Shown here: in pieces, positions 218-15,465 of the stretch
How positions within the stretch are numbered: position 1 is the stretch's first letter
How the letters are laid out: each line of letters starts with the position of its first letter
NCBI RefSeq assembly: GCF_040760005.1
Contig: NZ_CP099760.1
Span: forward strand, 4,459,501 to 4,523,500
From: Pseudomonas sp. stari2
Lineage (GTDB): Bacteria; Pseudomonadota; Gammaproteobacteria; Pseudomonadales; Pseudomonadaceae
DNA length: 64,000 bases
Direction: 5' to 3'
Made by a program: the position numbers and the translations under genes
The notes under the pieces: model-generated
What the model saw: only the letters and a program-made list of their open reading frames with translations
The model's database searches: none
Told to the model about the DNA's origin: nothing

Positions 218-598
218 AGCGCGGTCCATAGTGGGAAAAGTGCCAACTAGCGTGTCAAGCCCAACTTGTTTAATGTGTGTCTTGCTTCACACAAACAGGG
301 CGACAACAACCCAAAACAAAAACAGTTCCATCACTGGCCAAAAATATTTTTAAAGGCCAAACTGTATTGCCCGGTACTTATTAGCACTCTCGCACTTTCA
401 CCACTATCGACAGATACCGACTAAAAATAACTGTTATTTATCAAGCCGACATCTAATAACATTATCCCGCTTTACACCAAGCTAACATTGCCACTTACAA
501 CCTGACTCAGGTATTAAAGTACAGCCTCATCAACTTGCAACTTTTCCTTATTGCAATGTAACCGATGGCTGTATGCCATGAATGTCCAGGAAACTTCT
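218..598. promoter_or_regulatory. galE-galU divergent intergenic region
   Basis: A non-coding stretch of 381 bases, clearly more AT-rich than its flanks, between the divergent galE and galU genes. It carries two copies of a 15-bp element at 417-431 and 446-460 and a 15-base motif at 373-387 (GGTACTTATTAGCAC). Both kinds of motif recur upstream of wzb and the glycoside hydrolase gene about 11 kb away. I could not assign a sigma-70 promoter with confidence and see no small gene in it. Confidence 0.6.
417..460 (+). repeat. Pair of EPS-promoter elements (copies 1a and 1b)
   Basis: Copy 1a is CCGACTAAAAATAAC (417-431) followed by TGT. Copy 1b is CCGACATCTAATAAC (446-460) followed by ATT. The starts are 29 bp apart. 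The same ordered pair occurs at 11512-11527 and 11562-11576. Function unknown; a binding site for a shared EPS regulator is the inference. Confidence 0.6.
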
Positions 599-1432
599 AT
601 GATTCGTAAATGTTTGTTCCCCGCTGCCGGCTATGGCACGCGTTTCTTGCCGGCCACCAAAGCCATGCCCAAAGAGATGCTGCCGATCGTCAACAAGCCG
701 TTGATCGAATACGCCGTTGAAGAAGCACGGGACGCCGGCCTGCAGCACATGGCAATCGTCACCGGACGGGGCAAGCGCGCGCTGGAAGACCACTTCGACA
801 TCAGCTACGAACTCGAACACCAGATTCGCGGCACCGAGAAAGAGAAATTTCTGGCCGGCACTCGCGAGTTGATCGACACCTGCACCTTCTCCTACACCCG
901 CCAGGTGGAAATGAAAGGCCTGGGCCACGCGATTCTCAGCGGCCGCCCGCTGATCGGTGACGAGCCCTTCGCTGTAGTCCTGGCAGACGACCTGTGCCTG
1001 AACCTCGAAGGCGACGGCGTGCTCACGCAGATGATCCAGCTCTACAAGAAATTCCGCTGCTCGATCGTCGCCATCCAGGAAGTCCCGCGCGACCAGACCC
1101 ACAAGTACGGCGTGATTGCCGGCGAGGCGATTTCCGACGGTATCTACCGGGTCAATCACATGGTGGAAAAACCGGCCCCGCAAGACGCCCCATCGAACCT
1201 GGCGATCATCGGCCGCTACATCCTGACGCCCGACATCTTCGACCTGATCGCCGACACCGAGCCCGGTAAAGGCGGGGAAATCCAGATCACCGACGCCCTG
1301 ATGAAACAGGCGCAGAACGGTTGCGTGCTGGCCTACAAGTTCAAGGGTCTGCGCTTTGACTGTGGCGACGCCGAGGGTTACCTCCAGGCGACCAACTTCT
1401 GCTACGAGAACGTCTACCTCAAGGGCCGTTAA
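599..1432 (+). CDS. galU: UTP-glucose-1-phosphate uridylyltransferase
   Basis: This 277-residue protein catalyses UTP + glucose-1-phosphate to UDP-glucose + PPi in the cytoplasm. The N-terminus MIRKCLFPAAGYGTRFLPAT carries the nucleotidyltransferase loop (GxGTRxLP), followed by KEMLP; VLADDLCLN holds the metal-binding Asp region, and GGEIQITDAL is typical of GalU. The length is normal for bacterial GalU. I chose the ATG at 599 because AGGAA lies 6 bases upstream (588-592); an upstream in-frame start would add 16 residues without homology. It is divergent from galE and 31 bases ahead of the phosphomannomutase-like gene, probably in one transcript. UDP-glucose feeds EPS, LPS and UDP-galactose synthesis. 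Confidence 0.95.
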   Translation: MIRKCLFPAAGYGTRFLPATKAMPKEMLPIVNKPLIEYAVEEARDAGLQHMAIVTGRGKRALEDHFDISYELEHQIRGTEKEKFLAGTRELIDTCTFSYTRQVEMKGLGHAILSGRPLIGDEPFAVVLADDLCLNLEGDGVLTQMIQLYKKFRCSIVAIQEVPRDQTHKYGVIAGEAISDGIYRVNHMVEKPAPQDAPSNLAIIGRYILTPDIFDLIADTEPGKGGEIQITDALMKQAQNGCVLAYKFKGLRFDCGDAEGYLQATNFCYENVYLKGR

Positions 1433-1463
1433 ACCGCCCCCGCGCACATCCGACGAGGCAACC

Positions 1464-1874
1464 ATGAACATTGCACAACATTCGACAGACATTGAACGGG
1501 AGGTGGACAACCTCGGGGTGATGAGCTGGTTGTCTCGTCATCAGCCGTTGCCCAGCGCCAACGAATCCTGGCTCGGGACCATCCTGCTGGTGGAGCGGAT
1601 CGGCATGTTTCCTTCATCCGGGGACATTCGCCGACCAGTGCGCGATCCCTATCCCCTGCTCGCCCATCTGAAATGGATCTACGGCGAACAGGCGCTGGAG
1701 GTCGATGACCGCGACGGCCTGAAAGTGATTTTCAGCGACTGGCGATTCCGGGTGCGCATCTGCTGCAACGACCCGGCGATCATCATCACTGTGGAAACCC
1801 GTTGCGTGACGCAATTGATGCCGCAAAAGACCGCAGAGCTTCTGGGTCACGTGGACAACTTCGACCAGGGCTGA
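1464..1874 (+). CDS. Orphan phosphomannomutase C-terminal-domain-like protein
   Basis: A 136-residue protein. From about residue 40 it resembles the last ~95 residues of phosphomannomutase ManB/CpsG: FPSSGDIRR resembles FPASGEINR, then QALEVDDRDGLKVIFSDWRFRVR lines up with the domain-4 stretch ending DWRFNLR. The phosphate-binding loop that follows, RxSNTEP in real mutases, reads RICCNDP here, so the Ser/Asn/Thr ligands are gone. Domains 1-3, including the catalytic Ser loop and metal site, are absent, and nothing resembling them lies in the 31 bases separating it from galU. It cannot be an active mutase alone. A GAGG ribosome site precedes the ATG at 1464. It could be a regulatory or adaptor domain, or a retained remnant. 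The alignment is from memory of the family. Confidence 0.6.
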   Translation: MNIAQHSTDIEREVDNLGVMSWLSRHQPLPSANESWLGTILLVERIGMFPSSGDIRRPVRDPYPLLAHLKWIYGEQALEVDDRDGLKVIFSDWRFRVRICCNDPAIIITVETRCVTQLMPQKTAELLGHVDNFDQG

Positions 1875-1878
1875 GCCC

Positions 1879-3015
1879 TTATTCCGAGGCGGCGCCGCAG
1901 GAAACCCCGTGGTTGCCGCCGACGATCATCCGATAGAAGTAATCGGCAATCACCTTCCCTCCCGTGGCCGGCACCGGATGTATCTTGTCCGGGCCGATCA
2001 TCGCCGCAGCGTAACGCTTGACGTCCGTACCGAACGCGCATTGCAGATTGGCGTAACCCAGATGCTGCTCACGAGCCCAGGGTTCCAGCACCTGCGCGTA
2101 GGCCGACATTGGATAGGCGCTGGAGCGCGTGGTGTCCTGGCGCAGGATCAGATTGACGCTCGCTGACGGCTGAATCTCGCGGATCATCCCGACCAGCCCC
2201 TGAACGTTCGTCAGGTATTGCTCGGGTTTCACCCCGAAACCCTGATCGTTGCCACCGAGCATGATCAGATAGACATCGGCCGGAATCTTCGAGACCACCG
2301 CTTTCCACTGCGCCTGCCACTGACCGTCGCCATGATAGAAATCGGCAGAGGCCGCACCCGACGCGGCCAGTTTCGACACCCGCAAACCGGCCTGTTCGTT
2401 GCTCATCCACAGGCCGAACAGGGTTGGCGCGCCCTTCACCACTTCCAGCCTGAAGGACCAGTCCGTCGCGGAGGATGTACCTGACAACGGGACTTCCTGA
2501 ACACCGACACCGGTCAGCTTCAAAGGCTGCCAGGATTGCGAGGGTGCCCAGCGATAGCGCAGTTCACTGGATTCGCCGTTGCCCAGAAAAAGTAACTTTG
2601 CCTGAGTGACAGCGGTGTTTATCGCTTCACTCGGATGGGCATCGACCTGCAGCCATGCACCGAGACTTCCGGTCACGGTACGGCTGTCGGGACTAGCCAC
2701 GCCGAGGTTCGACACCTTCCAGTCGCCGCCGAAGTATTTCTCGCTGCTGCGGGTGTACTTGAAATGGCTGCCGCCCAGCGCCGCGCCATGGTTGAAGCCG
2801 ACATAACCGGGGCCGGCGAAACCGACCTCCCCGACCAGCCGCTGAACCAGTTTGTTCAGATAGAAATCCTGCCCGGCGCTGTAGCTGTCGCCGATCACCG
2901 AGACCGACAACACCTTCCCGGCCTTGCCTTCGCGCCACTGAGCAAAACGCTCGCGGACGTCCCCGACTTCAACCACCGACGCCGCGACCGGCGCTGCGTC
3001 ATCCACTGCAACCAT
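1879..3015 (-). CDS. SGNH/GDSL hydrolase-like protein of the EPS operon
   Basis: A 378-residue protein with the SGNH blocks: GDSYS (nucleophile Ser44), GGND (Gly255, Asn256) and DKIHP (Asp343, His346). Such enzymes add or remove O-acyl groups on polysaccharides. Its start codon overlaps the stop of the acyltransferase gene (TGATG at 3013-3017), so the two are translationally coupled and probably act together on EPS acylation. I see no hydrophobic signal peptide at the N-terminus, which begins MVAVDDAAPVAASVVEVGDV; this is odd for an enzyme expected to meet periplasmic polymer. It is the last gene of the minus-strand EPS operon and converges on the galU transcript with a 4-base gap. Confidence 0.75.
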   Translation of the reverse strand: MVAVDDAAPVAASVVEVGDVRERFAQWREGKAGKVLSVSVIGDSYSAGQDFYLNKLVQRLVGEVGFAGPGYVGFNHGAALGGSHFKYTRSSEKYFGGDWKVSNLGVASPDSRTVTGSLGAWLQVDAHPSEAINTAVTQAKLLFLGNGESSELRYRWAPSQSWQPLKLTGVGVQEVPLSGTSSATDWSFRLEVVKGAPTLFGLWMSNEQAGLRVSKLAASGAASADFYHGDGQWQAQWKAVVSKIPADVYLIMLGGNDQGFGVKPEQYLTNVQGLVGMIREIQPSASVNLILRQDTTRSSAYPMSAYAQVLEPWAREQHLGYANLQCAFGTDVKRYAAAMIGPDKIHPVPATGGKVIADYFYRMIVGGNHGVSCGAASE

Positions 3016-4067
3016 CAGGCACTTCCTTTAGCCGAAACCTGCGCCGGGGAGACGTTCCCCGCCGGTTTTTTCGCCGCCGCACGCTCACCCAGAAACAGCA
3101 CCGAAGTGAAGTTGAACCGGCTGAAGATCGTCGACAGCAACACCGGCCCGAGCAACCCGCAAGCCACGCCGCAGAACACCAGCACACTTTCGTCCTTGAT
3201 GCCCAGGCGCCCGAGCACCGAGCGCGAGGTGGCAGCGAACAACACATGAAACAGGAAAATCGCGTAAGAGTAACCACCCAGCCAGGTCAACGCCTTCGAA
3301 CGCATGTCACTCGACAGCAGCGTGAAGCAGGACACGCATCCAACCGTCAGACCGATCAGGCTGCGGCGGTCGATGATCAGCTCGCGATCCAGCGACGCGA
3401 TGTACAACAGCGTCAGGGAGATCAGCACAAACACCAACGGGCCAATGACTTTGAACCGTTGCTTCAACGCACTGACATTTTCCTGGCCGATCATGCCCGC
3501 CACAAAGAACGGCAACAGATAGGTCGCCCCGTTGATGCCGAACGCATCGAACTTGAACGGCGGCAACAGAAACACCGCTGCAGAAAACGCGAACAGCAGG
3601 TACAGACGCGTCGCCGAGCGCAGCCAACCACGCCATTCCAGCAGGCCGACAAACATGAAAATGATGAACACCGCCTGCAGGAACCAGAAGTGGTTCACCG
3701 GCACATAGAACGACAACAGCGCGTCGATCACACCGACGTCCTTGTTGACGCCCGGCCCCACCGCCTGCAACACCGAGAACGGCACACCCACGCAAAACAG
3801 CGGCACGATCAGGCGCCGCACCTTGCCGGTGAAGAACGCCGAAAAGTCATTGCCGCGAATCTTGTAGATGGAATAGATGTAGCCCGAGATAAAGGTGAAC
3901 AGCGGCATGCGCACGTACACCATCGAATCGGCGATCACCCGGAACGGCGAGCCGATGTCGATCTTCAAACCGCCACCCAACGGGCCGATCACGTGATAGA
4001 GCACCAGCAGCAGGCACGCGAGGCCGCGCAGGGTTTCGATCTCCAGGGACTTTTTCTTGCTCGACAT
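3015..4067 (-). CDS. Acyltransferase family 3 membrane protein (EPS O-acylation)
   Basis: A 350-residue polytopic membrane protein. The N-terminus reads IETLRGLACLLLVLYHV, with the conserved RG and the catalytic His of acyltransferase-3 proteins (WecH/OafA type). It is followed by RMPLFTFISGY, the characteristic second motif, and roughly ten hydrophobic segments to the end. The family moves acetyl or other acyl groups from cytoplasmic acyl-CoA across the inner membrane to sugars. It lies 12 bases after the polymerase-like gene, with a GAGGCGGGTG ribosome site spanning that gene's stop, and is coupled to the SGNH gene after it. The acyl group and the sugar are not deducible. Confidence 0.85.
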   Translation of the reverse strand: MSSKKKSLEIETLRGLACLLLVLYHVIGPLGGGLKIDIGSPFRVIADSMVYVRMPLFTFISGYIYSIYKIRGNDFSAFFTGKVRRLIVPLFCVGVPFSVLQAVGPGVNKDVGVIDALLSFYVPVNHFWFLQAVFIIFMFVGLLEWRGWLRSATRLYLLFAFSAAVFLLPPFKFDAFGINGATYLLPFFVAGMIGQENVSALKQRFKVIGPLVFVLISLTLLYIASLDRELIIDRRSLIGLTVGCVSCFTLLSSDMRSKALTWLGGYSYAIFLFHVLFAATSRSVLGRLGIKDESVLVFCGVACGLLGPVLLSTIFSRFNFTSVLFLGERAAAKKPAGNVSPAQVSAKGSA

Positions 4068-4079
4068 AAAGCACCCGCC

Positions 4080-5183
4080 TCAATTCAGAATTCTTGATTC
4101 GACCCGCACCGGTTTGTTCGCCCGCAGCATCAAGCCCAGGCCCACGAACAACACCGGCACCACCATCGAGAAGTGTCGGGCGAACGAGCCGAAGTCCGGT
4201 TCGAACAAGCCTTGAACCAGCAGAAACGCCAGGGGAATCGCGATCAGTTCCTTGGGTTTGGTCTGGATCGGCACGCCTTTGTAATCGGTCGAGGTGATGA
4301 CTTTGAACAGCAGCAGCGCGGTCATGATCATCAACGCCACGAAGATCACCTGGCCCGGCCCGGAGAGCAGGATCAGCTCAACCGGGAACGACAGCCGGAA
4401 GAAGATGATCATCGAGTCCAGCGCCTGCGAGACGAAATCGCTGCCGCTGAGCCAAGAGACAATCAGCGACTTGGAACCCTCCTCGCCCGCTGTGCGCAGT
4501 TCGTTGTTGCTGGCGCGAATCGACGACACCGGAAAGCCCAGCGCCAACTGGATGGCCATGGCCACCGCCAGGTAGAACAGGAACAGCATCAGGAAGAAGG
4601 TCATGCGCGACACGTACTTCTTCATCATGCAGACGCCGACCCAGGACAGCGAAAACAGGATCCAGTAGGGCCGGATCAGCACGCCGTAGATCACCGCCGA
4701 GAGGAAAAACCCGCCGCGATATTTGCGCGTCAGCGAGCTGAACAGAATGCTCAGCACCGCCACCGACACAATGATTTCCTTGGTCAGGTTCTCCAGGAAG
4801 AACGAACGCACCACGCCCCACAGGCACAGAGTGCCGAAGATCGCCAGCGGCATGCGCCGGAACACCACCACGGGAATCGCCGTGAGGAAAAAGTTGCAGA
4901 ACATCCCGTAGGCCCAGGCGTTGGTCAGGTTGATCCCGGTGGGCCGCAGCAGGAACGCCGAACACTCGTAGGAAGAGCGATCCGGCGAGAACGGGTTCCA
5001 GAAATTGCAGTTGTCGGCCCGGGCATAGGAAGACCACAGGGTCATCGCATCCGGGCCCGGATCGCGGGGGATCAGCAACGGCATGGCCACCGACAGAAAC
5101 AGGCCGGTGAACAGGATCAGGAATGACAGTGACGAATCGAGTTTCTTGCCGCGAAACTCGATGCACGGCAGTTTCAGGCCCAT
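4080..5183 (-). CDS. Polysaccharide polymerase-like (Wzy-like) membrane protein
   Basis: A 367-residue membrane protein with about ten hydrophobic segments and no strong family signature. An EPS polymerase (Wzy) is the missing function in this Wzx/Wzc-type operon, and its size and topology fit, so Wzy is an inference from context. The ATG at 5183 (MGLKLPCIEF) overlaps the end of the flippase gene by 10 bases; longer readings upstream of it are frame shadows. A loop of charged residues (SSIRASNNELRTAGEEGSKS) in the second half may be the periplasmic loop expected in Wzy proteins. It could be another EPS membrane protein instead. Confidence 0.6.
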   Translation of the reverse strand: MGLKLPCIEFRGKKLDSSLSFLILFTGLFLSVAMPLLIPRDPGPDAMTLWSSYARADNCNFWNPFSPDRSSYECSAFLLRPTGINLTNAWAYGMFCNFFLTAIPVVVFRRMPLAIFGTLCLWGVVRSFFLENLTKEIIVSVAVLSILFSSLTRKYRGGFFLSAVIYGVLIRPYWILFSLSWVGVCMMKKYVSRMTFFLMLFLFYLAVAMAIQLALGFPVSSIRASNNELRTAGEEGSKSLIVSWLSGSDFVSQALDSMIIFFRLSFPVELILLSGPGQVIFVALMIMTALLLFKVITSTDYKGVPIQTKPKELIAIPLAFLLVQGLFEPDFGSFARHFSMVVPVLFVGLGLMLRANKPVRVESRILN

Positions 5184-6406
5184 GACACGACAGCCTTTTT
5201 CGCACGCGTTGCACGGGTCAGCAGCGCAATCACGCCGAGCTGCACGATGATCCCGAAGACGTTGCCCCAGGCCGCGCCATAAATCGAATAGTGCTTGATC
5301 AGCACATAGCTGACCGGTACCGAAATCAGCAGGCAAAGGGCCGAACTGGCAAAGGATACCCGGCTGTTTTTCGACGCGATCAAGCCGCCCCAGACGATGT
5401 CGCCGATGGCGCGTAGGGCGAAGGAAAAGATCAGCACGCCAAGGATTCCGTTGTCCGGACGCGGCACCGCTGCGCCGACGTAATCGAGCACGACATTGAA
5501 GAACAGATAGATCGCCACCGCGACTGCCGCTGAAACCACCAGCGAACGCGCGACCCATTTGTTCACGAACAATTGCCTGACCGTGAACGCTTGTTGATCG
5601 GCCTGATAACGCTTGGCGAGCACCGGAATGCCGACCACCGCCACCACCGCGTAGGACAACGCCTGCAAGGTGTTGGCGGCCGACCAGGCGTACACGTATT
5701 TACCGAGGCTGGCGTAGGGTTCCAGATCAATGATCAGAAAGCGCTCGGCGTACTGACTCACTGCGATCAGGCCGGTGCCCAGGTAGAACGGCAGCCCGGC
5801 TTTCCACACGGTCGCCGTCGCCAGCGTCCCCTCTTCGCGTCCACGATGGACGTTCACCACAATCAGGTAACCGGCGACGATCACCAGCACGTTGGCGATG
5901 ACCCACAGCCATAGCACGCTGGCGATTCCGGACACCCAGCCGAGCATCATGCCGCCCACGGCCAGCAGTGCCCAGAGGCCGGTCTTGATGAAGAACAGCA
6001 GCGCCCCCGCCGTGGCTTTCTGCGCGGAAAACACGAACGAGTTGATCTCAAAGGACAGGTGCTCGGTCAGCAGAACCAGGGTCACACAGGCGATCAATGC
6101 CGCCGTCGCCTCGACCTGCTGGAACAGCGAATAGATCAGCACCGTCAGCACCGACAACAGCAACCCCACGGCCAGGTACAGCAGCAGAACCTTGTCGACG
6201 ACTCGCTTCGAACTGCCGCCGACACTGATCAGCCGATTGATCTCGGAGCTGAAGCCGACACTGTAGAACTTCGAAGCGATCAACGACGCCGCGACCACCA
6301 CGCCGTAAAACCCCAGCGCCTCGTAACCGAGGTAATGGGTAATGGCGAGCACCAGCAGGAACTTCGCACCCAGCGCTCCGCCGCGCAGCAACAAGCGGAA
6401 TATCAT
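5174..6406 (-). CDS. Polysaccharide flippase (Wzx-like, MOP superfamily)
   Basis: A 410-residue membrane protein beginning MIFRLLLRGGALGAKFLLVLAI, with about 12 hydrophobic segments, length and N-terminal pattern as in Wzx/RfbX-type flippases, which move undecaprenyl-linked repeat units across the inner membrane. It starts 4 bases inside the pyruvyltransferase gene (ATGA overlap at 6403-6406) and overlaps the polymerase-like gene by 10 bases, so it is firmly within the operon. Exact substrate unknown. Confidence 0.8.
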   Translation of the reverse strand: MIFRLLLRGGALGAKFLLVLAITHYLGYEALGFYGVVVAASLIASKFYSVGFSSEINRLISVGGSSKRVVDKVLLLYLAVGLLLSVLTVLIYSLFQQVEATAALIACVTLVLLTEHLSFEINSFVFSAQKATAGALLFFIKTGLWALLAVGGMMLGWVSGIASVLWLWVIANVLVIVAGYLIVVNVHRGREEGTLATATVWKAGLPFYLGTGLIAVSQYAERFLIIDLEPYASLGKYVYAWSAANTLQALSYAVVAVVGIPVLAKRYQADQQAFTVRQLFVNKWVARSLVVSAAVAVAIYLFFNVVLDYVGAAVPRPDNGILGVLIFSFALRAIGDIVWGGLIASKNSRVSFASSALCLLISVPVSYVLIKHYSIYGAAWGNVFGIIVQLGVIALLTRATRAKKAVVSWA

Positions 6407-7515
6407 CGAATGACGCCCTTGATGATGTCGTCCATGGCCACGGTTTTGGCTTCGATTTCACGGCAGGTGTCGGTCAGGCGCTTGCCGAAATCCGACAGCG
6501 CGTTCGGCGCAAAAACCGTGTCGATGATGGTGTCGACATTGATGTCGCCACCGTTGATGACCCAGTCCTCGACGCCCATGTCCTGATAGGCACCGAAGCC
6601 TTTGCGCTCGTAGCTGATGTGGTACGCCGGCACGCCGGAGAGCAGCGATTCGATCGCACCGTGCAGGCGCACGGAAATCACCAGGTCCGGCTGATATTTG
6701 GCAATCGTGGCCTTCAACGGCAGCAGGTCTTCGGTGATGCCCAGTTCGCGATAGAACGCTCCGTCATCGTTACCCCGCACAGCGCTCTGCACCGCGCAGA
6801 CCACTTTGCTTTTGTTCTTCAGACGCTGCAGCAGCACCTTCAGGTTGGCCACGTAGGCGAGCTTCTTTTCCTTGCTCCAGGCCGGCGGTTTGCGCAGCAC
6901 TACGCACACGGTGGCCGGCGTCGAGGCGCAACGGGTGAACTTGGGTTGCTGCAGGATTTTGCCGGCCAGGGCCTGCACCGCGAGATCCGGTGCGCGGTAG
7001 ACATTTTCGCAGGCATCGAACAACGCCGAGGAGCGGTTATCGCGCACGAACACCGCATCGGCGCTGGCGTAGTGGCCGACGATCTTGTCGCTGTCACCGT
7101 GGAACGGCCCGATGCTCTGCGGCAGGTACACCGACGGCACTTTGCTGAGGATCGCGGTCTCCAGTTGCTTGGCGTGGCCCAGTTTCAGCTTGATGTGTTC
7201 GAAGGCGCTTTTGGAGCGCATGTAGCCGCCACCGACGCCAACGATCAGATCGGTTTTCTTCAACAGATCCGCCAACCCGGCGTAGGACTGATTGAGGAAT
7301 ATCGCCTGCTTGACCCGGCCCAGGCCCTTGGCGGCCATGACCGGCGCATCGAAACGCGGGTGCGGCAGGTATTTGAAGGAATCCGGATCGGAGGCCACGA
7401 CGCTGATCGAAGTGTCTTCGCCAAAGTTGCGCTGCACCAGCGCAATGGCCAGATCGACCAGCAGACCATCGCCGGAATTGGAGGCACTGTAGCCATGCAA
7501 AATCGTTACGTTCAT
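6403..7515 (-). CDS. Polysaccharide pyruvyltransferase family protein
   Basis: A 370-residue cytoplasmic protein of the WcaK/AmsJ/CsaB type. The start NVTILHGYSASNSGDGLL matches the N-terminal nucleotide-fold motif of the family (NxGD). VGVGGGYMRS, VYLPQSIGPF and the C-terminal VRLHGAIESLLSGVPAYHISYE (the RxHG histidine motif) are the other family blocks. It probably transfers pyruvate from PEP to a sugar of the repeat unit as a ketal, giving a negatively charged polymer. It lies 14 bases after the glycosyltransferase gene. It is also homologous to non-catalytic relatives, so activity is inferred. Confidence 0.8.
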   Translation of the reverse strand: MNVTILHGYSASNSGDGLLVDLAIALVQRNFGEDTSISVVASDPDSFKYLPHPRFDAPVMAAKGLGRVKQAIFLNQSYAGLADLLKKTDLIVGVGGGYMRSKSAFEHIKLKLGHAKQLETAILSKVPSVYLPQSIGPFHGDSDKIVGHYASADAVFVRDNRSSALFDACENVYRAPDLAVQALAGKILQQPKFTRCASTPATVCVVLRKPPAWSKEKKLAYVANLKVLLQRLKNKSKVVCAVQSAVRGNDDGAFYRELGITEDLLPLKATIAKYQPDLVISVRLHGAIESLLSGVPAYHISYERKGFGAYQDMGVEDWVINGGDINVDTIIDTVFAPNALSDFGKRLTDTCREIEAKTVAMDDIIKGVIR

Positions 7516-7529
7516 GAGCGAAGTTCTAC

Positions 7530-8612
7530 TTAATAAGAGGGAGCGGAATACACGTCGTAGGTCTGGCGGATCATCAACGCGGCGCTGAAGCGCTCGCGGA
7601 CGATGCGCCGACCTTCAAGGCCAAGGACCGACAACGCGGGTTTCTGGATCTGCTTCAGGCGATCGGCCAATGCGTGGTGGTCACCGGTGGGGAACACGTA
7701 GCCGGACACCCCATGGGTGACCAGTTCAGGCAGCGAGGTGCAGTCGCTGGCGATCACCGGCAAGCCCAGCGCCATGCCTTCCAGAGGCACCATGGCGAAG
7801 CCTTCCCAGCGACTCGGAACAATCAGCGCATCGGCCTGTTGATACAGCGCGTTGACCTCGGCGGGCGTGACCCACGGCAAGTACTGAACACCGTCCATTG
7901 GCGGGCACTCGACCGTCGCCTCGTTGACCGCACTGCCGACCACCGTCAGTTTCAGGTCGTTGCGTCCGGCCTTGGCGTAGGCCTTGAGCAGCACGTCGAA
8001 GCCTTTTTGATAGTCGAGCCGGCCGACGAAGAGCAGATGAATCGGCTGTGGATCCTCGGCTTTGCGCGCGTCATCCTTGGGGTGTATGCCGTTGTAGATC
8101 AGGCGCATGCGCTTGCGCTCGATGCCAAACGCTGCGGCTTTGTCCAACTCGTACTGGCTGACGCAAATGATCGTATCGGTGACCTTCTGCAGCACGCGCT
8201 CGATCCACGCATAGACTTTCTGCTTGATCGGCGAGCTTTCCATCAGGAACGAAAAGGCGTGCGGGCAATAGACGATTTTCGGTTTGCGCCACGGCCGCAG
8301 AAGCACGCACACGCAACGGCCGATCACCCCGGAAAACGTGCTGTGCAGGTGCACCACATCAGGTTTTTCCTTGAGCATCACTTGCATCAGTCGCCAGGCA
8401 AAACGAAGCAACGACGGCACATTGCGCCCGGTTCGCTCGAAGGTGCGGATCTGCTGCGGGGCGATGCCGTGCAGTTCCTTTTCCTGATCCTGCGGCACCA
8501 GATACACCAGCTCGTAGTTGGCTTGCTCATCGTCCGGGGACGCCGAAATCGTGCGGATCACCGTCGCGACGCCACCTTTTATCGTTTCAGCCACGTGCAG
8601 TATTTTTTTCAC
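7530..8612 (-). CDS. Glycosyltransferase family 4
   Basis: A 360-residue GT-B fold glycosyltransferase. The N-terminus reads KKILHVAETIKGGVATVI, with the glycine-rich acceptor loop, then DVVHLHSTFSGVIGR. The C-terminal half has LLFVGRLDYQKGFDVLLKAY (phosphate-binding GR...KG) and PSRWEGFAMVPLEGMALGLPVIAS (the EGFxxxxLE donor motif). It starts with GTG at 8612; the nearest candidate ribosome site is G-rich but weak. It is the only glycosyltransferase in the visible part of the operon, so it cannot build a repeat unit alone; further transferases are expected left of the window or elsewhere. Sugar specificity is unknown. Confidence 0.9.
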   Translation of the reverse strand: MKKILHVAETIKGGVATVIRTISASPDDEQANYELVYLVPQDQEKELHGIAPQQIRTFERTGRNVPSLLRFAWRLMQVMLKEKPDVVHLHSTFSGVIGRCVCVLLRPWRKPKIVYCPHAFSFLMESSPIKQKVYAWIERVLQKVTDTIICVSQYELDKAAAFGIERKRMRLIYNGIHPKDDARKAEDPQPIHLLFVGRLDYQKGFDVLLKAYAKAGRNDLKLTVVGSAVNEATVECPPMDGVQYLPWVTPAEVNALYQQADALIVPSRWEGFAMVPLEGMALGLPVIASDCTSLPELVTHGVSGYVFPTGDHHALADRLKQIQKPALSVLGLEGRRIVRERFSAALMIRQTYDVYSAPSY

Positions 8613-8654
8613 AACCCACCCACTTTCTTGCCTGTAAAGAACAATCGCTGAAAC

Positions 8655-10883
8655 TCAGGATTTGTCGGACGCATATTCGTAGTTGTAATAGCCGTAGCTG
8701 CCGTTGCCGTAGTAACTGGCCGCACGCTTCTCGACGCCGTTGAACACCGCGCCTTTCAACTCGATGCCGTTCTGGGCGAAGCGACGAATCGTCAGTTCGA
8801 TCTCTTTGGCCGGGTTCACCCCGAATCGCGCGACGATCAGGCTGATGCCTGCTTCGCGACCGACAATCGCCGCATCCGTCACCGCCAGCAGCGGCGGTGT
8901 GTCGATGATCACCACGTCGTAGCGCTTGCTGAGTTCCGCCAGCAGGTCGCGGAAATTGGCGTGCATCAGCAGTTCGGAAGGATTGGGCGGCACCTGGCCA
9001 CGGCTGATGAAGTGCAGGTTGTCGACTTCGACCTTGTTGATCGCCTGTTCGAGGGTGCAGCGCTTGACCAGCAAATCCGACAAACCGTTGGTGATCGGTG
9101 TGTTCAGCGTCTTGTGCAGATGCCCCTTGCGCATGTCGGCATCGATCAGCACCACGCGCTGGCCGCTCTGGGCCATGACCGCCGCGAGGTTGGAAGACAC
9201 GAACGTCTTGCCGACCTGCGGGCTCGGGCCGGAAATCATGATGCGGTTGTTGGTAGAGTCCAGCGCCGCGAAATGCAGGCAGGTACGCAGGCTGCGGATC
9301 GACTCGATGGACAGGTCCGTCGGATTGCGCAGGGCCAGCAGATACGCCGGTGTGTCCGCCGTGACTTTGGCGCGGACTTTCTTGGTGTCCTCTTCTTTTT
9401 GCAGGGCGCTGTAAGGGATCGATGCGTAGACCGGCAAGCCGAGTTGCTCGATGGCTTCCGGCCCCTCCAGGCCCTTGCTCAGGGATTTGCGCAACAGCAC
9501 CAGGGCCACACCGACAAAGGCGCCGAGGAAGGTCGCAATCAGCACGATCAGGGCTTTTTTTGGTTTGACCGGACTGGTCAGGTCTACATCCGCCGAGTCC
9601 ACCAGACGCACGTTGCCCACGGCGCCGGCGCGGATGATGTCCAGTTCCTGGGACTTGTTCAGCAACTGGGTATAGATCTGCGAAGCCACTTCAACATCGC
9701 GGGTCAGGTTGAGCAGTTCCTGTTGCGTAGCCGGCAGGTCGCCAACCTTGCCTTCCAGCGACTTCTGTTGCTGGGTCAATTCACCGATCTGGGTCATCAG
9801 TGCACGATAGGCCGGATGCTGCCTGGTGAACTTGCGATCCATTTCCGCCTGCTGCATTTTCAGCTCGGAAATCCGCGTTTCAAGGGCGACGGACTGGCCG
9901 AGCACCGATTGGGTTTCCAGGGAGATGTTCACGGTCTTGCCGCGCGTCTGGTAGGCATTGAGCGCATCGCTGGCCTTGGCCAGGTCGCGTTTGACCTGCG
10001 GCAACTGACTTTGCAGGAAGGCCAGGCTCTGCGCCGCTTCGGCCGAGGTGCGGCGTACGTTCTGGTCCACGTACAGCGAGGCGATCTTGTTGAGGATCTT
10101 CACTGCTTCAGCAGCGTCGGTGCTGGCCAGGGCCAGGCGGATGATCCCCGACTCCTTGCCCTGTTCGGAAATATCCAGCGCGTCCTGATACCCCTGAATA
10201 GTCACGATCCGTGGGTAGCGCACCACTTCAAACCGGGTGCCGGGGTTGGCCAACAGCTGCGTGATCTGCCCTTCTACGCCATCCTGTGCGAAGGCTTCAC
10301 CAGCAGTGCCTTCTGCCAGCAGATTGTCGTTGTCGTCGAACAACTGAAAGCGATGCTGCTCGCCGGCGATCAGGCTGAGTTTCTTGCCCAGCAGCTCCTT
10401 GGGCAACTCGAGCCGGGCGAACTCCAACCGTTCACCGCCCCAAGCGTAGCTGCTCAGCCCGAAACGTGGCGGCGCGACGCTGAGTTCGGTTTCACCGCGA
10501 TAGCGGCGGGAGAGAAAACCGCCAATCACCGGGAAAGTATTGGGGGTGACGTCGATGTCCAGGCGCAGATCGTCGACGGTCTTGCCGATCACCGCGCGGG
10601 ATTTGATGATGCCGATCTCGGTCACGGACGGCGACTGACCACCCAGCATGCTGTTGAGGTCGGAGAAGCCGAGCATGTCATTCTTCTTCGGCTCGACCTG
10701 TACCAGCGCGTTGGCCAGATACACCGGCGTGGCCAGAATCGCATAGGCGACGCCGGTCATCATGAACGCGCCGGTGAAAGCGCCGATCAACCATTTCTGA
10801 TCGAGCAAACTGCCAAATATGCCGAGTAGATCAATACTGTCTTGATCGTTGTCACGGGTGCCGACTACTGACGGTAACTGCAT
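8655..10883 (-). CDS. wzc: Polysaccharide co-polymerase and tyrosine autokinase
   Basis: A 742-residue inner-membrane protein. A Wzz chain-length domain covers roughly residues 15-460, with membrane segments at about 33-50 and 442-464 and a periplasmic coiled region between. The cytoplasmic BY-kinase domain has Walker A GPSPQVGKT (552-560), Walker A' VVLIDADMR (577-585) and Walker B VVIIDTPP (656-663). The C-terminal tail has seven tyrosines between 724 and 737, the autophosphorylation cluster. It drives polymerisation and export of EPS, cycling between phosphorylated and dephosphorylated states through Wzb. It is the second gene of the operon, 38 bases after wzb. No Wza outer-membrane channel gene is seen in the window. 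Confidence 0.93.
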   Translation of the reverse strand: MQLPSVVGTRDNDQDSIDLLGIFGSLLDQKWLIGAFTGAFMMTGVAYAILATPVYLANALVQVEPKKNDMLGFSDLNSMLGGQSPSVTEIGIIKSRAVIGKTVDDLRLDIDVTPNTFPVIGGFLSRRYRGETELSVAPPRFGLSSYAWGGERLEFARLELPKELLGKKLSLIAGEQHRFQLFDDNDNLLAEGTAGEAFAQDGVEGQITQLLANPGTRFEVVRYPRIVTIQGYQDALDISEQGKESGIIRLALASTDAAEAVKILNKIASLYVDQNVRRTSAEAAQSLAFLQSQLPQVKRDLAKASDALNAYQTRGKTVNISLETQSVLGQSVALETRISELKMQQAEMDRKFTRQHPAYRALMTQIGELTQQQKSLEGKVGDLPATQQELLNLTRDVEVASQIYTQLLNKSQELDIIRAGAVGNVRLVDSADVDLTSPVKPKKALIVLIATFLGAFVGVALVLLRKSLSKGLEGPEAIEQLGLPVYASIPYSALQKEEDTKKVRAKVTADTPAYLLALRNPTDLSIESIRSLRTCLHFAALDSTNNRIMISGPSPQVGKTFVSSNLAAVMAQSGQRVVLIDADMRKGHLHKTLNTPITNGLSDLLVKRCTLEQAINKVEVDNLHFISRGQVPPNPSELLMHANFRDLLAELSKRYDVVIIDTPPLLAVTDAAIVGREAGISLIVARFGVNPAKEIELTIRRFAQNGIELKGAVFNGVEKRAASYYGNGSYGYYNYEYASDKS

Positions 10884-10921
10884 AAGTCTTTCTTACCATT
10901 CACTGTTCTGAAGAATATTCA

Positions 10922-11362
10922 TCAATGCCCGAGGCGTTGTGCCCATGAGCCAACAGCATCTTCAATCAATGCATGGGCATGAATAAAAGCGGCCTGCCCT
11001 TGACGATACGGATCCTGTATTTCTCGTTCGTTCTGCCACTTGCCGAGAAGAAACACTTTGCCCCTGGCGTGAGAGGCAATCTTCAGTACTTGTTTTACAT
11101 GCTCTTTTTCCATCACCAGAATCAGGTCTGATTCATTGACGATGTCCGCTGTCAGTTGCCGCGCCTTGAAGCCTTCGGCGCACTGCCCACGGTCTTCCAG
11201 CACCTTGCGGGCTGTTGCCTCCATGGACTCACCAACCCTTGCGGACAAGCCTGCGGAGGTGACGGTGATCGTCGAGGGCGCCAGTGCGTTGCGCAGCAAC
11301 AGTTCTGCTGTGGGACTTCGGCAAATATTGCCGACGCAGACGACAAGGATCTTTCTGAACAA
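10922..11362 (-). CDS. wzb: Low-molecular-weight protein tyrosine phosphatase
   Basis: A 146-residue cytoplasmic phosphatase with the active-site loop CVGNICRS (nucleophile Cys9, Arg15) and the DPY motif (IQDPYRQG) bearing the general acid Asp. It dephosphorylates the tyrosine cluster of Wzc. The start is a TTG at 11362, because the homologous N-terminus FRKILVVCVGN begins right after it and no ATG or GTG fits; a GGGAAAG stretch lies 6 bases upstream. It is the first gene of the minus-strand EPS operon and diverges from the glycoside hydrolase gene. The TTG start may hold its expression low. Confidence 0.9.
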   Translation of the reverse strand: MFRKILVVCVGNICRSPTAELLLRNALAPSTITVTSAGLSARVGESMEATARKVLEDRGQCAEGFKARQLTADIVNESDLILVMEKEHVKQVLKIASHARGKVFLLGKWQNEREIQDPYRQGQAAFIHAHALIEDAVGSWAQRLGH

Positions 11363-11665
11363 GGTTTACTTTCCCGTGTAATGTCAATCGGCCAACATTC
11401 CGTGTGGATTGAAATAAACCCACCAGACTTTCCCGCACTCGGAAATAGATTCGCCTGTTAGTACCGGTGCATTAAGTACCACGGGGTCCAAAAGTCACCC
11501 AACCAGAATTACCGGACTAAAAATAACTGTGATTTTCGGCGTTTTTTACACGCGGACTTTTCCGACAAAAAATAACATTTGTGCACTTTTCAACCCTTCG
11601 GACATCGGAATAGGGGTAACGAGATAACTATTGGCTAGATGTCATTTCTCATCAGGAGAGCAGAC
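11363..11665. promoter_or_regulatory. wzb / glycoside hydrolase divergent promoter region
   Basis: A 303-base AT-rich non-coding region that must hold the promoter of the EPS operon (minus) and of the hydrolase (plus). It contains GTGCATTAAGTACC at 11467-11480, which read on the minus strand resembles the 373-387 motif of the galE-galU region. It also carries the two 15-16 bp elements described separately. I could not place -10/-35 hexamers convincingly. No small coding sequence is apparent. Confidence 0.6.
11512..11576 (+). repeat. Pair of EPS-promoter elements (copies 2a and 2b)
   Basis: Copy 2a is CCGGACTAAAAATAAC (11512-11527) followed by TGT. Copy 2b is CCGACAAAAAATAAC (11562-11576) followed by ATT. 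The order (TGT-type first, ATT-type second) and the orientation match copies 1a/1b at 417-460, but the spacing is 50 rather than 29 bp, a difference of about two helical turns. Confidence 0.6.
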
Positions 11666-12610
11666 ATGAAATCAGCACATCTCATTCGTCTCGGCGCCCT
11701 TTCCCTGTTAATGCTCAGTGCAGCGCCTTCGCTCCACGCCAGCGAGCTGTTCCCCGCCCTCCCCCACAAAACGGTCGGCGTTCAGGTCAAAGTCCAGAAT
11801 TTTTCCGCCGCTGATGCCGCGCAGATCAAGGCAGCGGGTTTCAGCTTCGTGCGCCTGGGCGCGTGGAGCGACAGCCTGGGCGACAAGACCTATCAGAAAC
11901 AGCTCGGCGATGCGTTTGCCGCCGCCGGATCCGCCGGCTTGCCAGTGCTGATGACGGTACGCGCCATCAAACCGCTGTCGGCAGACCCGGCCACCGCCGG
12001 CACGGCGTTTGCCAGCGCGGTCGCCCGCCTTGAGCAGACCTACGGCTCTCAACTGGTCGCGATTGAAATCTGGAATGAACCGGATCTGGACACGTACTGG
12101 CCCACGGGCAATTTCAGCACCACGTTTGCGCCTTTCATGAGCGCGATGTGCAAGGCGCTGCAAGACAATCCCACCACCACTCCCGTGATCGGTTTCGGCT
12201 TCGCCCGGCCACCAAGCGCCGGTTCGGCCTCGACCGTAGCGCTGAACAGCATTCTCGGTACGTATCCCAAGTGTTTGAGCGCCATTTCCTACCACCCCTA
12301 TGGCATGACGGCGACGCAGATCAGCAATGCGCAGACCTTCATCCAGCAGAACTTCCACCTGCCTGGCGTCATCAGTGAATGGGGGATTTCAGCACTTGCC
12401 TCCAACGGTGGTCCCGACGGACAGGCCACCAAGATCGCAGCGTTCATTGCCGATGTGAAACGACTGCAGATTCCGCTGACTTCGATCTACGAATGGAAAA
12501 ACAGTGATTCGGGGAGCAATGACCGAGAGAAGAATTTCGGCTTGCAGACCTCGAACGGGCAACCGAAGCCCGCAGAAGCGGCCGTCAGAACGCAGCTGGA
12601 GTCCGAATAG
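11666..12610 (+). CDS. Secreted glycoside hydrolase (clan GH-A, PslG-like)
   Basis: A 314-residue protein with a signal peptide (cleavage likely after LHA, residue 25) and a TIM-barrel hydrolase pattern. IEIWNEPD has the acid/base Glu138 after Asn, and VISEWG has the nucleophile Glu238 on a late strand; SYHPYG lies between them. This layout is that of clan GH-A enzymes, including the PslG-type endoglycosidases that trim exopolysaccharide during biosynthesis. The ATG at 11666 follows AGGAG with about 8 bases spacing; a longer reading from 11639 would begin before the ribosome site. It is divergent from wzb and shares its regulatory region, so it probably edits or degrades this EPS in the periplasm or outside. 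Confidence 0.8.
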   Translation: MKSAHLIRLGALSLLMLSAAPSLHASELFPALPHKTVGVQVKVQNFSAADAAQIKAAGFSFVRLGAWSDSLGDKTYQKQLGDAFAAAGSAGLPVLMTVRAIKPLSADPATAGTAFASAVARLEQTYGSQLVAIEIWNEPDLDTYWPTGNFSTTFAPFMSAMCKALQDNPTTTPVIGFGFARPPSAGSASTVALNSILGTYPKCLSAISYHPYGMTATQISNAQTFIQQNFHLPGVISEWGISALASNGGPDGQATKIAAFIADVKRLQIPLTSIYEWKNSDSGSNDREKNFGLQTSNGQPKPAEAAVRTQLESE

Positions 12611-13801: not shown

Positions 13802-14284
13802 TCAATGCCTTTCGAGGGCATTCACCAGATCATGGAAGGCTTCGCGGTTGGAGTCGTTCAGGCCCATGAGGATCTTGTGCGCTTCCAGCACCTTGATCCG
13901 CACGACTTCCTCAGACTGATCCTGATCCGGCAGGTCATCGAGGCATTCCGGGCAAGGCACGGGATGGTTGACGATATTGAACACCTGCTCGAAACCCATC
14001 GATTGCAGCAGACGGGTGATGTCGTCGTGGGTGGTGACCACGGTCGGCAGCAGGCCGACCTTTTGCCGCGACAGGATCGACAGCTTGGCCAGCAGACCCA
14101 GCGTGGTGCTGTCGATGCTCCGGGTTTCGGTCAGATCGATCACGATCGCGTTGAAATTCAGCGCGGTGAAGATCTTTTCAATAGTCGCATCCAACGCCGA
14201 ACACAGGGTCAGGCGAACTTCACCGACGAACTTCAGGACGAAGGTGCCGTCCTGCTCGGCGAACTGGATTCTACCGGTACTCAT
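13802..14284 (-). CDS. rssC: STAS-domain anti-sigma factor antagonist
   Basis: A 160-residue protein with one STAS domain over about residues 1-105. IVIDLTETRSIDSTTLGLL carries the phosphorylatable Ser/Thr cluster (Ser59-Thr61) of SpoIIAA-like proteins. A C-terminal extension contains a CPEC pair. The start overlaps the stop of the response-regulator phosphatase gene (TAATG), so both are coupled, the classical layout of a partner-switching module in which the phosphatase dephosphorylates the STAS protein. The symbol follows the PAO1 pair next to tal (RssB/RssC), as I recall it. An HsbA-type protein is the close alternative. Confidence 0.75.
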   Translation of the reverse strand: MSTGRIQFAEQDGTFVLKFVGEVRLTLCSALDATIEKIFTALNFNAIVIDLTETRSIDSTTLGLLAKLSILSRQKVGLLPTVVTTHDDITRLLQSMGFEQVFNIVNHPVPCPECLDDLPDQDQSEEVVRIKVLEAHKILMGLNDSNREAFHDLVNALERH

Positions 14285-15465
14285 TAAAGATTCCTGCTCA
14301 ACACCAACAAGGCGATATCATCCGGCATCTCCCCTAGCGTGGCCAATCCAAAAACCTGCCGCAGGCCATCCAGGCTGCCGCCCGCCGACTTGACCCGTTG
14401 GGGCAAGGCAGCTTCTTTCTCTTTGAGTGTGGGTTCTGGCAAAAGATCCAGAATGCCATCAGACATCAGCGTCAGGCTGAACGTCGGTGGCAGCTCGAGC
14501 ACGTGGTCTTCGTAGGTGGCTTCGTTGAAAAGCCCCACGGGCAGGCCGCGCCCTTCGAGGTAGCGAACACTGTCAGGCGTGTACAACACAGGCAACGGCA
14601 GATGGCCGCCGATGCTATAGGTCAACAAACCGGTCTCCTCGTCGATGACTCCACCGACCATTGTGACGTGTTTACCCAGCTTACAACTGATCAGCCCCCG
14701 GTTGATATGACCAAGGACTTCCGAAGGCTTGAATTCCGGCAAGGTGCCGTTGCGCTTGGACTCGAACAACAGGCGCGTGGTCATGAACTTCAGCAGTACG
14801 GTGACGAACGCCGAAGAGGCGCCATGGCCCGACACATCCGCCAGATAGAACGCGACCCGACGCTCGTCCACCCGGAAATAATCGACAAAATCACCCGACA
14901 GGTACAACGACGGGATGATCTGGTGGGCGAATTTGAACGCGTCGATGGTCCAGGGGCTTTCCGGCAGCATGTTCATCTGCACCTGGCGACCGGCGTTCTG
15001 GTCTTCCTGAAGCAGATTCAGGCTGGCTTCGAGCTCACGGTTGGCCTTTTCCAGCTTCTCGCGGTAGCGCTGGTTTTCCAGCAGCAGACGCGCACGATCC
15101 AGAGCCCGGCGCACGGAGTGCTCGAGCACGGCCAGATCTTCGAGAGGCTTGATCAGGTAATCCGCCGCGCCCAGGCGCAGGGCCTCGACCGCGTCGTTCA
15201 TCACGCCGGCACCCGAAACCACGATCACAGGCGTCTGTGGTGACCGCTCGGTGACCTGACGAATGAGTTCGAGACCGCCCATCTGCGGCATGCGCAGATC
15301 GCAGATGACCAAGTCGGGCTTGTCTTGCTCGAATACCTGAAGACCCTGCTGGCCGTTACTGGCCTGCAAGACGCTGAAACCACTGTCTTCCAAATAGGCC
15401 GCGAGGCTCGCGCGCACTACTTCGTCATCATCGATTATCAGCAGCGTGGCACTGGTTTTTGGCAT
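14284..15465 (-). CDS. rssB: Response regulator with PP2C/SpoIIE phosphatase output
   Basis: A 393-residue cytoplasmic protein. The receiver domain covers about residues 6-122 (acidic pocket IDDD, phospho-acceptor Asp56 in ICDLRMP, Ser/Lys switch region VVSGAG and LIKP). A coiled-coil linker spans about 130-170. A PP2C-like SpoIIE phosphatase domain follows, with GDFVDYF, YLADVSGHGASSAFV and LMSDGILDL as metal-binding motifs. It lacks the extra kinase domain of HsbR. An unknown sensor would trigger dephosphorylation of the STAS partner. Family members of this kind regulate RpoS or surface behaviour in pseudomonads; the output here is inferred. Confidence 0.8.
   Translation of the reverse strand: MPKTSATLLIIDDDEVVRASLAAYLEDSGFSVLQASNGQQGLQVFEQDKPDLVICDLRMPQMGGLELIRQVTERSPQTPVIVVSGAGVMNDAVEALRLGAADYLIKPLEDLAVLEHSVRRALDRARLLLENQRYREKLEKANRELEASLNLLQEDQNAGRQVQMNMLPESPWTIDAFKFAHQIIPSLYLSGDFVDYFRVDERRVAFYLADVSGHGASSAFVTVLLKFMTTRLLFESKRNGTLPEFKPSEVLGHINRGLISCKLGKHVTMVGGVIDEETGLLTYSIGGHLPLPVLYTPDSVRYLEGRGLPVGLFNEATYEDHVLELPPTFSLTLMSDGILDLLPEPTLKEKEAALPQRVKSAGGSLDGLRQVFGLATLGEMPDDIALLVLSRNL

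Follow-up and report, generated by a model that had tools for sequence, protein, structure and literature searches.

At the left end of a 64,000-nucleotide stretch of Pseudomonas sp. stari2 DNA (contig NZ_CP099760.1, positions 4,459,501 to 4,523,500; hereafter the window) lies part of an exopolysaccharide (EPS) locus in which two intergenic regions separate divergent genes, galE from galU and the wzb-wzc operon from a glycoside hydrolase gene (Table 1). Each region carries a pair of short elements, referred to below as sites 1 and 2 of the galE/galU and wzb/hydrolase pairs. All four copies lie where a first-pass annotation of the window had placed them, the 16-mer that it gave for one beginning at 11512 and the core copy at 11513. 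Read on the minus strand they share the core GTTA-N6-GTCNG, in which the GTTA and GTC blocks by definition start 10 bp apart; the blocks are only partly alike, and their spacing is kept in alignments. The flanks are also as first described, TGT following the first copy and ATT the second in both pairs. The start-to-start spacing is 29 bp in the galE/galU pair, as annotated, and 49 bp in the wzb/hydrolase pair, the 50 bp given previously being obtained only when counting from 11512.

Table 1. Features of the EPS locus and of its candidate regulators. Positions are those of the window unless a stretch (L number) is named; L226 is a stretch of the same genome.
Feature	Position	Strand	Length	Basis or remark
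galE, 5' part (UDP-glucose 4-epimerase-like)	1-229, on to about -799	minus		named from translation
Proposed galE -10, TAATAA	378-383	minus		by eye; 34 bp past site 1 core
Conserved GATAGTG block	402-408			at -35 position of galE
Site 1, galE/galU pair	417-431	minus		reads GTTATTTTTAGTCGG; proximal to galE
Site 2, galE/galU pair	446-460	minus		reads GTTATTAGATGTCGG
Proposed galU promoter, TTGCCA-N18-TATTAA	488-517	plus		conserved block in 28-sequence alignment; by eye
galU (nucleotidyl transferase)	599-1432	plus		PF00483, 2.4e-31; ATG at 599 by eye
Small phosphomannomutase C-terminal-like (CpsG) protein, after galU	1464-1874	plus		NF011943, 2.9e-14, far below cut-off
wzc (chain-length/tyrosine kinase)	8655-10883	minus		Wzz, WZC_N, GNVR, AAA_31
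wzb (low-molecular-weight tyrosine phosphatase), first gene of EPS operon	10922-11362	minus		PF01451, 1.4e-32
Proposed wzb-operon -10, TACTTA	11473-11478	minus		by eye
Proposed wzb-operon -35, TTGGGT, adjoining site 1	11497-11502	minus		conserved GGTTGGG block; by eye
Site 1, wzb/hydrolase pair	11513-11527	minus		reads GTTATTTTTAGTCCG; proximal to wzb
Site 2, wzb/hydrolase pair	11562-11576	minus		reads GTTATTTTTTGTCGG
Proposed AlgU-like hydrolase promoter, GCACTT-N16-TCGGA	11583-11609	plus		just downstream of site 2
Glycoside hydrolase gene	11639-12610	plus		PF00150, 4.8e-4, below cut-off
TF1	L226:9275-10009 (about 9-10 kb left of window)		245 aa	Trans_reg_C, 1.4e-10, above gathering score
TF2	L226:10305-10946 (left of window; TF1/TF2 together 8-10 kb left)		214 aa	Trans_reg_C, 9e-9, above gathering score
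Degenerate EAL-domain gene between TF1 and TF2	L312:2433-3017; L348:3194-3922; L308:2444-3001			diverged lineages

The presence of the paired element is not a matter of chance. The sequence CCGACNNNNAATAAC (CCGAC-N4-AATAAC) has three matches in the whole 6,310,573-base genome, all inside the window, and CCGACTAAAAATAACTNT at up to three mismatches has eight, of which the best three (0, 1 and 2 mismatches) are copies described here and the other five have three mismatches. The core, GTTANNNNNNGTCNG, matches six times in the window, four of these making up the two pairs, against a shuffle mean of 0.79; none of 100 shuffles reached six. The genome holds three strict pairs, every one at this EPS locus. 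The third lies outside the window, at positions -850 and -832 (spacing 18 bp), upstream of a minus-strand operon with yjbE-like, wza, yjbF, SLBB/yjbG and yjbH genes, named by reading except that the wza product is a polysaccharide export protein by profile. The element had initially been described as shared by two EPS promoter regions, which proves too narrow in view of this third pair, 850 bp to the left of the window, and of single sites at TF1, wcaJ and TF2.

Conservation was followed among 199 genomes of the genus, of which 28, the present one included, encode an orthologue of the hydrolase (E below 1e-100). Both pairs are found in the same order in all 27 hydrolase-bearing relatives at up to two mismatches per site, so that loss of the motif from close relatives that keep the EPS locus, the outcome named beforehand as refuting its significance, did not occur. 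The strict wzb/hydrolase pair is present in 28 of 28 genomes and the strict galE/galU pair in 25, the other three (L084, L085 and L097) having one core base changed; galE/galU spacing is 29-30 bp across the relatives. The third pair is strict in 22/28 genomes, and a yjbE-like gene is present in 27/27 relatives. A search with the hydrolase yielded 64 loci from named Pseudomonas (15 further loci with distant matches were left out of the count). When one mismatch per site is allowed, all 64 carry the hydrolase pair; its spacing is 38 bp in 56 loci, 39 in six, and 37 and 49 in one each. In two 28-sequence alignments 31 of the 32 core columns are invariant, compared with 93 of 562 other intergenic columns.

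Two candidate regulator genes, here called TF1 and TF2, lie at the far end of the same locus. Their products resemble the OmpR/PhoB family, the nearest solved chains being PcoR (4.1e-5) and PhoB (2.9e-4) for TF1 and CpxR (1.6e-4) for TF2, and an operator core of two short blocks starting 10 bp apart is a possible further likeness to that family. Unlike its usual members, the two genes stand together, no sensor kinase was noticed alongside, and neither protein of this genome has a Response_reg match at E up to 0.1. Diverged copies in genome G183 do match that profile (TF2 at 1.8e-8; TF1 at 2.7e-4, short of the gathering score). For TF1, some weak NCBIfam matches begin within the receiver part, at residue 61-71. 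The apparent phosphosite, a likely acidic position, is not conserved across TF1 copies. Over 35 copies of TF1 (31-100% identity) and 37 of TF2 (34-100%), sets in which a few genomes are represented twice, the C-terminal helix and wing are near-invariant and the N-terminal part is variable. TF1 and TF2 are atypical OmpR/PhoB-type winged-helix proteins with a degenerate receiver part, and not canonical response regulators.

Seven loci, belonging to six genomes, have a third gene between TF1 and TF2, and two further loci (L309 and L310) match it. The three copies checked match the EAL profile at 2.4e-11 to 1.6e-12, with the first 69-133 profile positions missing. The present genome has only a remnant of this gene, between L226:10012 and 10304 (47% over 36 residues, E 1e-5), and in L303-L307 the remnant is weak or absent. 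Distant TF1/TF2-like pairs occur beside type I secretion and giant adhesin-like (LapA-like) genes in G043 (L350) and beside a mannose-1-phosphate guanylyltransferase-like gene in G116 (L352), all named by reading; these pairs are possibly part of a wider family of matrix regulators.

Single copies of the element are associated with the regulator genes themselves. The sequence GTTACCAATTGTCAG lies 76-78 bp before TF1 in 28 of the 30 TF1 loci fetched, that is, in every locus above 55% identity, and a second GTTA-N6-GTCNG site is situated 360-414 bp before TF1 in the 26 loci at no less than 73% identity. Between TF2 and wcaJ, 153-189 bp before the wcaJ match, GTTA-N6-GTCAG is present in all 30 TF2 loci fetched. 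The 60 TF1/TF2 stretches, which partly overlap and are at most about 4 kb long, hold no further plus-strand match; minus-strand matches, one or two apiece, occur in four stretches, from two genomes.

TF1 (search threshold E up to 1e-15) is found in 48 of the 199 genomes of the genus, and TF2 (E up to 1e-10) in 49, namely the same 48 and G138. Of the 48 genomes with TF1, 42 have strict pairs; of the 151 without it, one does (G080, as a tandem array). With gaps of 3-33 the pair pattern is found in 39/199 genomes, at 91 places by tally, seven of which are elsewhere (four in G080, two in G183, one in G167); in G183 it is these matches elsewhere that fall within gaps 3-33, and the true pair adjoins wzb. 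With gaps of 32-48 it is found in seven of the 199 genomes, at one place each, and all seven carry TF1; the true pair of G183 is among them. The association of the gaps 3-33 scan with TF1 has p = 2e-30 by a one-sided Fisher exact test, which is uncorrected for relatedness and overstates the evidence. The other outcome that had been named as speaking against the element, copies scattered at random over the genome, was likewise not encountered.

In genomes that lack the hydrolase the pair is situated beside wzb-wzc of different EPS operons, with spacings of 29-32 and 57-60 bp; wzc is seen in 12 of the 13 loci of this kind (the exception being L106), and GTTA...GTCNG is directed at wzb in the wzb cases read. 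A scan of 293 genomes across the order finds TF1 in two, both of this genus, and outside the genus 14 single-site matches, none with a partner; within this sample the element thus seems specific to Pseudomonas. Single hits in L108, L110, L112, L113, L115, L116 and L117 were set aside as random or coding matches, since with one mismatch allowed no second site turned up over 300 bp. The same holds for CCGACAATAAATAAC in L045, L055, L056 and L062: nothing pairs with it inside 65 bp, and three of these four have only a match with one or two mismatches at +170.

The arrangement of the sites bears on which genes they serve. The first-pass annotation had placed the pairs before galU and the hydrolase gene, which accounts for half of the picture: by geometry the divergent minus-strand operons, galE and wzb-wzc, suit the pairs no less well. 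At galE, wzb and yjbE, all on the minus strand, a conserved block (GATAGTG, TTGGG and TGGCAA respectively) lies about 10 bp past the proximal site, and TAATAA, TACTTA and TAGATA stand 33-34 bp past it. We dropped the notion that the pairs activate only the plus-strand galU and hydrolase genes because the pair in G132 (L283) adjoins wzb with neither gene alongside in the stretch read. The G095 locus (L282) has a pair upstream of a small phosphomannomutase-like gene and G048 has a like pair, which suggests that the pairs can serve both directions. The product of the small gene after galU covers positions 356-452 of the 456 of the NF011943 profile, and small genes similar to it by eye adjoin wzb and the pair in unrelated EPS loci.

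For the hydrolase gene, regulation through the pair is only putative, because a candidate AlgU-like promoter directly follows site 2. Promoters of AlgU (sigma-22) have GAACTT-N16/17-TCTGA-like boxes, and GNACTW-N16-TCNNA recurs at a fixed distance past site 2 in 54 of 65 loci and is missing in 11. We also note that similar dyad-like sequences, GGTACTTATTAGCAC (373-387) and GTGCATTAAGTACC (about 11468-11482), are situated about 30 bp before site 1 in the two regions and overlap the proposed galE and wzb -10 boxes.

Because a proximal site lies near the -35 of each minus-strand gene and promoters are also proposed in the galU and hydrolase direction, we take each pair to be an operator shared by two divergent promoters. 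We propose, as the probable explanation of these sequence patterns, that they are operators with the core GTTA-N6-GTCNG for a regulator from the same EPS locus, the candidate being TF1 together with TF2. The earlier suggestion of a dedicated regulator linking precursor supply, polymer assembly and the hydrolase is thus well borne out by genome comparison for precursor supply and polymer assembly, given that the pairs are kept with the hydrolase locus and, as strict pairs, are near-absent without TF1, and that TF1 and TF2 are distributed almost as the pairs are. In this model the regulator, with its genes at the far end of the EPS locus, would act on galE/galU, wzb-wzc/hydrolase, yjbE-wza-yjbFGH, wcaJ and TF1 itself. 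TF1 and TF2 would fill both sites of a pair and so switch on the divergent promoters together, the site proximal to the minus-strand gene lying just upstream of a weak -35, the usual position of a class II activator, and TF1 would be autoregulated via the site before its own gene. What the sequences show is that the sites are present and conserved, where they lie, and that they co-occur with TF1 and TF2; binding to the sites, activation, the signal and autoregulation are what we infer from the arrangement of genes and sites.

The spacings within pairs (18, 29-32, 37-39, 49-50 and 57-60 bp overall) change mostly in steps of about 10 bp, which suggests that the helical facing of the paired sites matters, even if the spacings do not amount to whole turns. 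The asymmetry of the core, together with the constant pairing of TF1 with TF2, suggests a TF1-TF2 heterodimer. RcsA-RcsB and BldM-WhiI are heterodimeric NarL-type regulators with composite operators; TF1 and TF2 are like them in being two related, co-encoded proteins with an asymmetric site, and unlike them in being OmpR-type, with a heterodimer that is putative. A bolder version, which we regard as possible but rather doubtful, is that TF1 and TF2 are an obligate heterodimer, one subunit reading GTTA and the other GTCNG, which with the EAL protein would form a phosphorylation-independent, perhaps cyclic di-GMP (c-di-GMP)-sensing EPS/matrix switch, of which the adhesin-side and guanylyltransferase-side pairs would be further members.

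Several observations weigh against assigning the sites to TF1 and TF2. Since these genes and the sites share one locus, they may be co-inherited without interacting, and the Fisher p value partly reflects this linkage. TF1 seems damaged in two genomes that keep the pairs, being in two separate pieces in G005 and having an in-frame stop in G165. Conversely, a strict pair is missing from six of the 48 genomes with TF1. Three of them, G067, G171 and G179, carry a one-base variant. In G088 there are EPS genes and sites in a different arrangement, and the ranges searched hold no strict pair. The last two, G043 and G116, have TF1 homologues of only 31-33% identity; the stretches read from them contain neither EPS gene matches nor pairs, and G043 has just one single site. 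In L313 and L314 (G059 and G048; TF1 identity 51-52%) there is no site in the 450 bp before TF1, yet these genomes have the wzb pair, and a site directly before TF2 is found only in the present genome and L286. A reversed-pattern control gave 63 scattered matches in the 199 genomes by tally, so that single matches mean little, and the -35 and -10 boxes were placed by eye.

The damaged-looking TF1 copies would be easier to understand if a regulator of the Pseudomonas core genome encoded elsewhere, such as an OmpR/AmgR orthologue or another response regulator, read the sites, with TF1 and TF2 being passengers or acting upstream; half-sites GTTAN and GTCNG starting 10 bp apart would suit any OmpR-type regulator. 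We think this unlikely, as strict pairs are almost absent from the 151 TF1-free genomes, where core regulators are expected, and all of those in the present genome fall at the EPS locus. Two different pentamers and the pair spacings given above could also be matched to an activator of the AraC/XylS type, and a gene that is AraC-like by eye adjoins TF1 in L313 and L314. However, none was noticed on reading L226, where no AraC family search was made, and two OmpR-type genes of matching distribution are present there, making such an activator a very improbable reader of the site. It is equally hard to credit that the element works in RNA, for instance as an A-rich Hfq/Crc or leader site. On the plus strand the core, CNGAC-N-AAAAATAAC, is A-rich and precedes the plus-strand genes by 90-140 bp, but site 2 before galU reads CCGACATCTAATAAC, the TF1 and wcaJ sites are not A-rich, GTTA and GTCNG are all that the listed sites have in common, and the sites sit between divergent genes.

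Known regulators of Pseudomonas matrix (EPS) genes, the role proposed here for TF1 and TF2, include FleQ and AmrZ. The FleQ box has the consensus GTCANTAAATTGAC, which at up to three mismatches matches the window 10 times against 7.98 expected, with no match at 370-600 or 11360-11640; we rejected it as the identity of the element, there being no match near either pair. Group 4 capsule and yjb operons, which are under RfaH control, resemble the present locus in their yjbE-wza-yjbFGH-type genes. Several of the related EPS loci also have RfaH-type antiterminator genes (L280:17645-18154, L282:11452-11961 and L345:6262-6765), recognized in L280 by TIGR01955 (3.5e-47), in L345 by 57% likeness and in L282 by eye. 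Unlike those operons, an operator read by TF1 and TF2 would mean control at the level of DNA, and a search of L226 and the window with the L280 RfaH-type protein gave nothing better than E 0.14. Farther along the window (13802-15465), beside a transaldolase gene, are genes for a STAS protein and a SpoIIE-type response regulator, which we take to be RssC/RssB-like.

No earlier description of the operator or of the TF1/TF2 gene pair was found among the titles and abstract openings that our literature search covered, most subscription journals lying outside it. With the operons proposed as targets, they make up one testable package of operator, target set and candidate regulator for an EPS locus of Pseudomonas. 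The mucoid polymer of P. fluorescens Pf0-1 is reported to be lost on deletion of Pfl01_3834, primers there being named galE (PMC4748119), and to be made by an rsmE mutant (PMC9578434). The locus for that polymer may be the present EPS locus, to judge from the galE-named primers, and the TF1/TF2 system may then supply the missing transcriptional input for the Pf0-1 polymer. If the proposal that includes the EAL protein is true, the two atypical regulators, with their composite operator and their degenerate EAL partner, would tie EPS transcription to c-di-GMP along a path that bypasses FleQ.

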